Shown piece by piece: positions 5,298 to 46,700 of a DNA stretch of 64,000 bases. Every line of letters starts with the position of its first letter. Within the stretch, counting starts at the first letter, position 1. The position numbers and the translations under genes were made by a program. The notes under the pieces were generated by a model that saw only the letters and a program-made list of their open reading frames with translations, did no database searches and was not told the origin of the DNA. This stretch comes from Oscillospiraceae bacterium (GTDB taxonomy: Bacteria; Bacillota; Clostridia; Oscillospirales; Oscillospiraceae). The stretch is taken from assembly GCA_015068135.1 (NCBI GenBank), contig SVLB01000001.1:44284-108283 (forward strand). Direction: 5' to 3'.

Positions 5298-5465
5298 TGA
5301 TATATCGCTGACACGATATGATATACGGCGTTGCCGTATGATATACTTGCCTGCGGCAAGCATGATATAATATCCGTTCCTCCATATGCCGCAGGCATAT
5401 ATCATCGCACGAAGTGCGATATCATATCGAAGATATATCACCCGTTCCGTAAGGAACGGATATCA
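5298..5465. repeat. Cluster of distinct short hairpins separated by GATAT(C/A)AT-type linkers
   Basis: tacggcgttgccgta, cttgcctgcggcaag, tatgccgcaggcata, atcgcacgaagtgcgat, atatcgaagatat, ccgttccgtaaggaacgg in tandem. Confidence 0.75.
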
Positions 5466-5468
5466 TTG

Positions 5469-5510: not shown

Positions 5511-5584
5511 TGGAGCAGGGTACGGGAGTCGAACCCGCCTTCACGGCTTGGGAAGCCGTTGTATTACCGATATACGAACCCTGC
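5511..5584 (-). tRNA. tRNA-Gly (anticodon CCC), CCA encoded
   Basis: Minus strand GCAGGGTTCGTATATCGGTAATACAACGGCTTCCCAAGCCGTGAAGGCGGGTTCGACTCCCGTACCCTGCTCCA; acceptor GCAGGGT/ACCCTGC. Confidence 0.93.
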
Positions 5585-24376: not shown

Positions 24377-24453
24377 GGTGGGTGTAGTTCAATTGGCAGA
24401 GCACTGGATTGTGGTTCCAGGCGTTGTGGGTTCGAGTCCCATCACCCACCCCA
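24377..24453 (+). tRNA. tRNA-His (anticodon GTG) with encoded G-1, CCA encoded
   Basis: GGTGGGTGTAGTTCAATTGGCAGAGCACTGGATTGTGGTTCCAGGCGTTGTGGGTTCGAGTCCCATCACCCACCCCA; G-1:C73. Confidence 0.95.
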
Positions 24454-24456
24454 GAA

Positions 24457-24498
24457 AAGCCAAAAGCCGTTCCGATAGGAACGGCTTTTGGCTTTTCT
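24457..24498 (+). terminator. Intrinsic terminator of the tRNA cluster
   Basis: agccaaaagccgttccgataggaacggcttttggcttttct. Confidence 0.8.
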
Positions 24499-24503
24499 AT
24501 GGG

Positions 24504-24882
24504 TATTCGTGGGTGATGGGACTCGAAAGGGCGGCCCATCCGAAGGATGGGCAAAAATTGAGAGCTGGCGAGCAATTTTTAGCCCGTGGGAGAGTCCCAT
24601 AGGAAAAGGAGTATTCGTGGGTGATGGGACTCGAAAGGGCGACCCATCCGTAGGATGGGTAAAAATTGAGAGCTGGCGAGCAATTTTTAGCCCGTGGGAG
24701 AGTCCCATAGGAAAAGGAGTATTCGTGGGTGATGGGACTCGAAAGGGCGGCCCATCCGTAGGATGGGTAAAAATTGAGAGCTGGCGAGCAATTTTTAGCC
24801 CGTGGGAGAGTCCCATAGGAAAAGGAGTATTTGTGGGTGATGGGACTCGAAAGGGCGGCCCATCCGAAGGATGGGTAAAAAT
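24504..24882. repeat. 108-bp-period tandem repeat array (3 full units plus one partial) derived in part from the tRNA-His 3' half
   Basis: Unit starts at 24504, 24612, 24720, 24828 (exact 108-bp spacing); each holds gtgggtgatgggactcgaa, the reverse complement of tRNA-His 24431-24449. Confidence 0.93.
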
Positions 24883-32380: not shown

Positions 32381-32395
32381 TTCTTCACAACTGCA

Positions 32396-32502
32396 TATCT
32401 TCAGGGCAGGGTGAAATTCCCGACCGGCGGTAAAGTCCGCGAACCCTTTGGGTTGAATCGGTGCGATTCCGATACCGACAGTACAGTCTGGATGGAAGAA
32501 GA
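32396..32502 (+). ncRNA. FMN riboswitch (RFN element)
   Basis: tcttcagggcagggtgaaattcccgaccggcggtaaagtccgcgaaccc...gattccgataccgacagtacagtctggatggaagaaga. Confidence 0.97.
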
Positions 32503-32520
32503 AAACAACGCAATTTCTAT

Positions 32521-43735: not shown

Positions 43736-46700
43736 TTAGTTTTCTTCCTCGGTGACAGCGGTCACGATATCGTAGAGCTTGGTGAAGCCCCAAGCATTCA
43801 GTTTGTCGGCAATGCTGCTGATCATGGTCTTCAAGCCTTCCTGCTGGCCCTGGGTGAAGGGCTCGCTCTGTTCATTGAGCTTGTGCAGAATGCTCTTGAG
43901 GCTAAACTCGTAAGAGCTGCTGGTGATCACAGTGCCGTCGGTCAAGGTCAGGGTCACGTATGCGCTGATCGTATTTTCCGCATAGGCCATGTCGTAATTG
44001 CTGATGACCAGGCTTACAGGTGTGCCGGCGTTGCCGGTGACAAAGTCCTCTCTCACACCGGAGCAGGTCTTTGCATTTTGCTGACCCTCCAGCTGCAGGG
44101 TGTAGCCAAAGGCGGCAGTCTCGCTGAGCATGCTCTTGACGATCTCGTCACCGCCGAAGATGGCCTTGTAGCCAACGCCGCTCTTGCCGGGGCGCAGGGT
44201 CACCTTGGTAATGCCCAGGTAGATCCGGTGGAAGGAGACTGCACCGGTCTCAGGATCGGTATAGGTCAGGTAACGCAGGACACTGCCCAAAGCGCCGGTA
44301 GCAGCAGTCTTGTGATGCAGTGCCACATTGCCGGACACCTCAGCGATGCTGCCGTAACCGTCGGAGCAGTCGTAGTCATTGGTGGTGCTGTCCACACCGT
44401 AGAGGGTTGCGCCCTCGGCAACAGTAACCGTACCGGTGATGCTGAAGCCGTTCAGATCCAGATACAGGTCCGTCTTGACCTCTGCGTTCTCTTCGATATT
44501 GCCCACCAGGACTACCAGGCCGTTTTCCCCTGCGGCATCCAATGCCTCCTGAAGGGAGGTGTACTGGGTATCGCCAACCTGTGCCACAGGCGTCTTGGGC
44601 TCCTCGGGCTGGGCATTGGGATTGTAGACCTTGTACAGATAGGTTGCGTCGTCATTGTTCTGAAGCTCGCAATCGGCAGCCAGGTAGGCAGCATTGACGC
44701 TCTTAACGAAGTAGCCGCCGGAGATCGCGCCGTTGAGACCTACGCCGTAGACTGCGCCGCCGGAGAAGTAACCGCCGGTAACGGAAACGGTGGAGGTGCC
44801 TACTGCATACAGAGGATAGGCAAGTACGGCTTTGGTATTGACCAGGAAGCCTCCGGACACCGTGACGTTGGAACCGGCAAGGGCATTCATGCCGTAGTTA
44901 CCGCCGGTTACCTTGCCGCCCTCCATGTTAAAGGTGGCATTTGCCCAAACCTTGACGCCTGCGGCATTGGCACCGCCGGACACATTGCCGCTGAGCATGG
45001 TAACGGAGGAGCCTGCGGTTTGGTAGATCTCAATACCGTGTCCGTTAGCCATGGCATTTTGGATCAGACCGTCGCCTTCGGCAGAGGTATCCATCAGGGT
45101 AACCACGCCGCCATCCACATACAGTGCGCCTGCACCGCCAAAGGAGCCGGTGATGGTACAGCCATTCAGATCGATGGTAATATTGCCATTGTAGACGTCC
45201 AGAGTTCCGTTGGTACCCAGCTCCATATCCTGATAGAACTTCAGGTAACCGGTGCCGGTGATCTTCTTCAGTGCGGCATTCAAAGTCGCTGCGTTGGTAC
45301 TGCTGTAATAGGTGGTAGTACCGTCAACGGTAATGCTGTAGTAAGTACCTGCAGGTACATCCGTATCGGGGGTGTCAGGCACAGAGGGAGTCGTCGGCTC
45401 GGTTTCGGGCTCAGAGGGCTCCGAAGGCTCGGAGGGCTCGGTGGATTCGGAAGGCTCGGTTTCCTCTGCGACCGTCTCCACAGTCACAAGAACGTTGCCC
45501 TCAGCGCCCACAACGCCCACATAGATGCTCTGACCAACGCTGGTGCATTCCCATTCCAGGGTGTTGGAGGTGCTGTTGGGATTATTCAGGTAGGCGGTGC
45601 TGTAGCCCCAAATGCCAATGGTAGTGCCGGCAGGGGAAGTAACGGTATACTTGCCGGCCTCTGTGGGACGGAAGCGGAAAATGGTAGCCTCGGCAGTGTC
45701 GATCATGGACACGGTGTTATCGCCAACGGCCAGCAGGGTGGTGGAGACCGCATAGGCATCCTTTACCACCTCGGGCTCAGAGGATTCCGGCTCAGAAGAC
45801 TCAGGCTCAGAAGACTCAGGCTCGGTGACCTCAGGCTCGGAAGGATCCGTTCCAGGCTCGGAAGGATCGGGCTCAGCGGTGGACAATACCACATTTACGC
45901 TGATATTGCCCTCAGCGCCCAAAACGCCCACAAAAATGCTGGGGCCAACATTGGTGCATTCCCATTCCAGGATATTGGAGGTGCTGTTGGGATTATTCAG
46001 GTAAGCGGTGCTGTAGCCCCAAATACCAATATACGTACCGGCAGGTGCGGTGATGGTATACTTACCGGTAGCAGAGGGCGTAAATTTGAAAATGGTAGCC
46101 TCAGCGGTGTCGATCATGGACACAGCGTTGTCGCCCACAGCCAGCTTAGTTGTGGAGACCGCATAGGCGTCCTTGGTAACCTCAGGCTCAGTGGGCTGTT
46201 CCGGCTCGGTGCCGCCTGCGGCCTTGAATACTGCGGTCACAGGGGTTGCGGTCAAAGCGCCGCCGGTCGTCTTGTAGACACGAATGCGGTAAGTCGTGCC
46301 TGCGGTCACCTCCGCGGTAAAGGTAGCAGCGGCAGTACCGCTGGCGGATGCCACAGTCTTCATGGAAAGACCCGCAAAGTAAACCACATCAGCGGTCCAG
46401 TTGGTGGTGCCGTCACCTACGGTGATGGTCAGGGTGCCATCCTCGGTGGGCTTGTAGGAATAGACATACTTTTCGCTGGAATCGGCGGTTACGCTTTCGT
46501 TCAAAACCACTTCGCCGTCCACGGGCTCAGAGGGAACACTGGGCTCCGTGACTTCAGGCTCAGAGGGCTCAGGCTCGGTGACCTCAGGCTCGGTGACCTC
46601 AGGCTCAGAGGTCTCAGGCTCGGTGACCTCAGGCTCAGAGGTCTCGGGCTCAGAGGGCTCAGGCTCACTGGGCTGGGGCGCTTCTGCCAGATGCATGGTG

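Follow-up and report, generated by a model that had tools for sequence, protein, structure and literature searches.

Tandem array behind tRNA-His

The window analyzed here is the whole 64,000-nt stretch from an Oscillospiraceae bacterium (assembly GCA_015068135.1, contig SVLB01000001.1, positions 44,284 to 108,283 of the forward strand). It contains a tandem array located behind tRNA-His, the last gene of a tRNA-Gly-Arg-His cluster. In each unit of the array, the end of the tRNA is repeated in inverted orientation, hereafter the antisense arm (AS). The array is a member of a widespread family of short non-coding elements that gut bacteria of the Oscillospirales type carry just past their tRNA genes. 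The features of the locus are listed below, where S1 is the tRNA 3' end serving as template sequence, S2 the direct copy in the unit, and P1 the outer stem.

24378-24453 (+): tRNA-His(gtg), from ARAGORN, Rfam RF00005 and the sequence
24431-24453 (+): S1, the tRNA-His 3' end, from the sequence
24454-24497 (+): intrinsic terminator hairpin directly after tRNA-His, with 20-bp arms and a GATA loop, from the sequence
24504-24611 (+): unit 1, comprising AS, three-way-junction core and S2, from tandem repeat detection, folding and a covariance model match at 24519-24597 (locus L005, 1506-1584)
24509-24527 (+): AS of unit 1, from the sequence and the tracking test
24516-24524/24592-24600 (+): P1 of unit 1, from sequence and fold
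24592-24600 (+): S2 of unit 1, GAGTCCCAT, from the sequence
24612-24719 (+): unit 2, with AS at 24617-24635 and a model match at 24627-24705
24720-24827 (+): unit 3, with AS at 24725-24743 and a model match at 24735-24813
24828-24882 (+): unit 4, with AS at 24833-24851, ending early after hairpin 1, from the sequence

Tandem Repeats Finder (TRF) placed the array at 24503-24882 with a period of 108, 3.5 copies and 97% matches. The sequence gtgggtgatgggactcgaa, the exact reverse complement of tRNA-His 24431-24449, is present once per unit and four times in total (24509-24527, 24617-24635, 24725-24743 and 24833-24851). The original prediction, made from the letters of this stretch, described a 108-bp tandem array with an exact 19-nt antisense copy of tRNA-His, and both TRF and the sequence bear this out. 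Its statement that the copy represents the 3' half of the tRNA is accurate in the exactness of the antisense match and generous in extent, as the match spans T54 to approximately the end of the acceptor stem and covers only 19 of the 76 nt. A perfect 19-mer antisense match 60 nt from tRNA-His, occurring four times over, is not due to chance, and the same layout also occurs at independent loci.

The predicted outer stem and both inner hairpins are present, and for each strand of a single unit the fold is better than that of every one of 200 shuffled sequences (z -3.7 and -4.2). Within P1, S2 (GAGTCCCAT) is a short stretch that repeats the 3' strand of the tRNA T-arm in direct orientation and closes the stem with AS. 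The terminator hairpin at 24454-24497 forms the center of an S1-terminator-AS palindrome, and unit 4 is fused to a terminator-like hairpin (AAAAATGGTTCTATAACCATTGTTTT). Two open reading frames of 124 and 134 amino acids extend across the array; they look like by-products of the repeat, and protein coding was rejected.

Anatomy and distribution of the family

The layout consists of the tRNA 3' end (S1), a terminator, the inverted copy (AS), a branched hairpin core and the direct copy (S2), the last being either short or a complete tRNA 3' end depending on the locus. Units measure 60-190 bp, are free of genes, and are mostly found 43-66 nt past the tRNA; the tRNAs concerned represent 20 anticodon types. 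The original prediction had asked if tRNA-His always precedes the unit; the units lie behind many different tRNAs, and the family is therefore not a tRNA-His system. In the source genome itself, two further single copies were identified behind tRNA-Arg(acg) and tRNA-Leu(cag), each starting past the tRNA terminator and carrying arms antisense to its own tRNA (GGGACTCGAA versus TTCGAGTCCC and GCGGGACTTGAA versus TTCAAGTCCCGC).

Searching at the DNA level detected the unit in 43 of 149 genomes around the source genome. An exact pattern for the core matched 56 stretches from Clostridia genomes, Oscillospiraceae among them. With a covariance model built on the core, searches were made at the genus, family, order and class levels. 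In the genus, 78 of the 121 genomes sampled contained the core; in the family, it was present in 17 other genera among the 106 sampled, and in the order sample in 15 other genomes belonging to seven other families. Elsewhere in the class, four weak-to-moderate matches were obtained, the best two of which (L263 and L264) possess the full layout behind tRNA-Tyr. When the array and its single-copy relatives were compared with 4227 Rfam families, no described family matched; viral contigs contained no element, and phage records gave ordinary tRNA-His matches only. No description of such elements was found in the open-access literature.

Two types of core were distinguished. In type A, to which the window units belong, the core is a three-way junction in which P1, formed by AS and S2, is followed by P2 (GGGC/GCCC), a hairpin 1 with a GNA loop, a hairpin 2 often carrying CCGGTGG, and a conserved GCCCGTGGGA ahead of S2. 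Units of the genus have an additional second hairpin (GACGCA...TGTGGA) after the core, which the window units lack. In other genera, S2 usually comprises the whole 3' end of the tRNA, CCA included, and a second terminator comes after it. Type B, observed in the source genome, has a different core within the same AS...S2 frame, in the order AS, CCATnTAnATGCAA, a CCGGTGG hairpin, a CCAGTGCAAACACTGG hairpin, a third hairpin and S2. It accompanies tRNAs Val-cac, Lys-ttt, Gln-ctg, Arg-ccg, Ser-gct, Leu-caa, Leu-tag and Thr-tgt. Type B elements were read at L193 1-701 (behind tRNA-Leu(tag) of the source genome), L244, L247, L249, L254, L255, L258 and L260, several of them with a full tRNA end and a second terminator.

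Other arrangements were also encountered. At L048 (5541-5761), two type A units lie head to head around a tRNA-Gln-end palindrome, where no tRNA was detected. Between tRNA-Arg(tct) and tRNA-His in L214, another palindromic repeat (gaaataaatccc ... ggatttatttt) follows the tRNA terminator, and its sequence is unrelated to types A and B.

Arms follow the local tRNA

To quantify the correspondence between arms and tRNAs, positions 54-62 of AS (a 9-mer) were compared with the unit's own tRNA in 87 units having a tRNA within 150 nt. The 9-mer was exactly that of the own tRNA in 70 of the 87; in 2000 shuffles of the tRNAs the average was 23, and the highest count was 35. Anchoring artefacts account for several of the 17 misses, such as the tRNA-Glu arms GGAATCGAA, which do match TTCGATTCC. 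Past the T-arm, AS is often decayed.

The same behavior is seen among alleles of one syntenic locus (HAD-family gene, tRNA-Gly, -Arg, -His), where the T-loop of tRNA-His varies by species (TTCGAGTCC, TTCGAATCC or TTCAAGTCC) and both AS and S2 follow it. The window has GGGACTCGAA, whereas L214 and L242 have GGGATTCGAA and L241 has GGGACTTGAA. Whether the 19-mer tracks the local tRNA, a question posed by the original prediction, is thus answered in the affirmative, down to single T-loop alleles. Among 24 readable tRNA-His loci, 6 were occupied by type A, 3 by type B and 1 by Gut-1 (described below), 4 were decayed, and 10 were empty, with the terminator only.

The core is transferable between loci. 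An identical 67-nt core is present behind Arg-ccg, with arms GGACTCGAA/GAGTCC, and behind Leu-cag, with arms GGACTTGAA/AAGTCC, while an identical 46-nt core with different arms is shared by Pro-cgg and Ser-gct of one genome. The tracking, the T-loop alleles and the identical cores with different arms together indicate that the arms are set by the place and not by the core.

Structure at the DNA or RNA level

The helices of the element covary strongly, with double changes in 26 of 30 pairs and 97.6% of cells paired. Their mispairs occurred at a G-T:A-C ratio of 65:21, or 25:20 when two junction pairs are left out. At the same loci, the acceptor and T stems of the tRNAs gave 326:4 and the tRNA-unit terminators 24:2 (Fisher p 3e-12 for 65:21 versus 326:4). 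Since the model used to align the helices accepts G-U pairs, any bias runs against a DNA-like result. The covarying element helices do not show the strand-specific G-U tolerance expected of a structured RNA. A structure maintained as RNA would be expected to resemble these controls on one strand; the element does not, and its structure looks to be kept at the DNA level.

This result bears directly on a regulatory antisense or decoy RNA, in which a read-through AS would pair with either S1 or S2, switching between misfolding or sponging of the tRNA and the folded core. Such a role would fit an AS that tracks the local tRNA, the conserved loop sequences of the core, and the fold of tRNA, terminator and unit together, in which AS, as RNA and as DNA, pairs with the tRNA end and not with the unit's own 3' arm (z -11.4 for the read-through transcript), the two pairings being mutually exclusive. 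It is, however, disfavored by helices that lack the G-U excess of same-locus tRNAs and terminators, by the free decay of the pairing partner beyond the T-arm, by the strong terminator preceding the unit, and by the many relatives with the same tRNA and no element. We regard the regulatory RNA, one of the original proposals, as quite improbable.

Two papers (PMC8794818, PMC8604942) describe the homogenization of inverted-repeat arms by template switching, and a third (PMC3820800) describes it in highly transcribed DNA. Perfect Watson-Crick arms are the expected outcome of such template-switch correction, and selection for a DNA hairpin would yield them as well.

Relation to known systems

The nearest known system is the rtT array behind tyrT of E. 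coli, in which tandem 178-bp units behind one tRNA each hold a direct copy of approximately its last 19 nt. Both cases feature tandem repeats right behind a tRNA gene, with a tRNA-end copy per unit. In contrast to rtT, the elements described here have an inverted copy and a branched core, and they occur at 20 anticodon types in many families. Neither the array nor its relatives matched Rfam RtT at E up to 1 or at the gathering score. Regarding the rtT-like direct copy, the window has only the short S2, whereas many relatives have it complete. A non-mobile replication by-product, in which recurrent template switching at terminator and T-arm palindromes would yield direct-inverted-direct copies as in rtT-type repeats, is consistent with the near-perfect S1-terminator-AS palindromes at L028, L032, L034, L059, L071 and L193, and with L263 and L264, where the tRNA end and terminator are duplicated as one block. 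It leaves unexplained the same conserved core behind unrelated tRNAs in many genera, and we consider it improbable.

REP/BIME repeats with RAYT transposases and miniature inverted-repeat transposable elements (MITEs) such as RUP and Correia are likewise short, non-coding, palindromic and interspersed, located behind transcription units in variable number. These repeats have fixed ends, whereas the arms described here copy the local tRNA and vary by locus, and no link to a Y1 transposase is seen. Unlike the copies of a MITE, the units do not share fixed terminal inverted repeats: AS and S2 vary with the local tRNA, and the core is kept. Insertion polymorphism at orthologous sites was observed, with the tRNA-His locus filled or empty by species. 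Bacteria commonly carry short palindromic repeats, but to our knowledge no known family of them takes its arms from a neighboring tRNA gene.

Integrative elements and genomic islands inserted at the 3' ends of tRNA genes share with this family the direct tRNA-end repeats flanking an insert and the coexistence of filled and empty sites. Direct repeats at both ends were identified here as a second tRNA-end copy of at least 14 exact nt at 39 of 111 AS-bearing tRNAs, while the window array has 9 nt only. These elements differ from such islands in their size (about 100-190 bp), inverted inner copy and arms that change with the tRNA, and the gene-free units encode no integrase of their own. Integron attC and CTX-phage sites resemble the units in their imperfect inverted repeats, branched hairpins and tandem cassette-like arrays. 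Here, in contrast, tRNA ends are the targets, cassette genes are absent, and the R'/R'' boxes of attC (GTTRRRY / RYYYAAC) were not found in the sequences read, S having GTTCRAN and AS its complement.

A folded single-strand attachment site of this kind, in which the AS-S2 duplex would present the tRNA 3' end to a recombinase, seems quite improbable. AS and S2 do rebuild the tRNA-end duplex, S1 and S2 are direct repeats, and large serine-recombinase islands also use tRNA 3' ends at the same loci (L035 and L040). Against it stand the lack of an identified integrase, the missing R boxes, and the combination of one core with different arms, unlike ordinary att exchange.

Large serine recombinase genes were observed at L035 (2816-4381) and L040 (2550-4112), their 3' ends running into a tRNA-Arg end remnant (GTACCA). 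They lie immediately upstream of the units there; because the tRNA remnant and a terminator lie between the recombinase gene and the unit, they are read as separate tRNA-end islands.

Gut-1 RNA and other features of the window

Gut-1 RNA (RF01706) has been described as known only from human-gut metagenomes (PMC2864571). It was identified in the window at 5394-5468 (-), just past the terminator of tRNA-Gly(ccc) at 5511-5584 (-), and Gut-1-like sequences also follow tRNA-Cys(gca) in L245 and tRNA-His in L220. Similar to the elements, Gut-1 in these genomes lies directly behind tRNA terminators; its sequence is unrelated and has no antisense tRNA arm. Gut-1 may be another tRNA-end palindromic repeat and not a free non-coding RNA.

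The window also contains an FMN riboswitch (RF00050) at 32393-32507 (+), with 118.5 bits, and several tandem arrays of 9, 15 and 45 bp at 45407-46667, which probably represent low-complexity repeats within a protein-coding gene.

Interpretation

We favor, with a probability of approximately 60%, the reading that the family consists of short DNA elements that move or amplify at the 3' ends of tRNA genes and whose arms have a local template, and that the window array arose when one such palindromic tRNA-end insertion element was amplified in tandem at this locus. In this process, the core would move between tRNA loci as DNA, through a recombinase or through template switching during replication. 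Template switching across two palindromes, S1-terminator-AS and AS-core-S2, is the probable means by which the arms would be generated and would stay identical to the local tRNA. Tandem growth of the array may have proceeded by recombination or slippage between repeats, and a benefit to the host would not be required. Of the three original proposals, partly supported as a set, the tRNA-derived expanding repeat and the multiplied att-like site came close to this reading, given the direct and inverted tRNA-end copies and the filled versus empty sites.

Several observations weigh against this reading. No enzyme, excision product or within-strain movement was seen. Neither Y1 transposase nor reverse transcriptase co-occurs with the element; Y1_Tnp is absent from the element-bearing genomes G054, G174, G281, G378 and G531, and G010 has Y1_Tnp with no detected element. 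A large serine recombinase domain was present in all 20 genomes tested and is hence non-discriminating. Core similarity was 0.637 within a genome across tRNAs versus 0.635 across genomes at the same tRNA; recent bursts are therefore not evident, and a recent within-genome burst is unsupported. The genomes are mostly metagenome-assembled, making copy numbers approximate. In addition, the conserved core nucleotides (GAAAGGGCGG, CCGGTGG and GCCCGTGGGA) could reflect selection for a function.

A further-reaching form of mobile DNA is tentative and, in our estimation, unlikely. It would have no fixed ends. Wherever it landed, both arms, inverted and direct, would be rewritten to match the tRNA next to it, which would let one strand fold like the tRNA-end attachment site, and unrelated cores of several kinds (A, B and others) would behave alike. 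Movement with rewritten ends, if proven, would make the family categorically new.

The tRNA 3' ends, classic hot spots of integration, become a natural record of the way in which the arms of inverted repeats are copied and kept identical, a process that is testable through allele comparison at one locus. The family also carries a warning, as strong covariation, which normally counts as proof of a functional RNA, stands here beside strand-neutral mispairs that point to DNA. A simple G-U:A-C test against the tRNAs and terminators of the same loci separates DNA structure from RNA structure.
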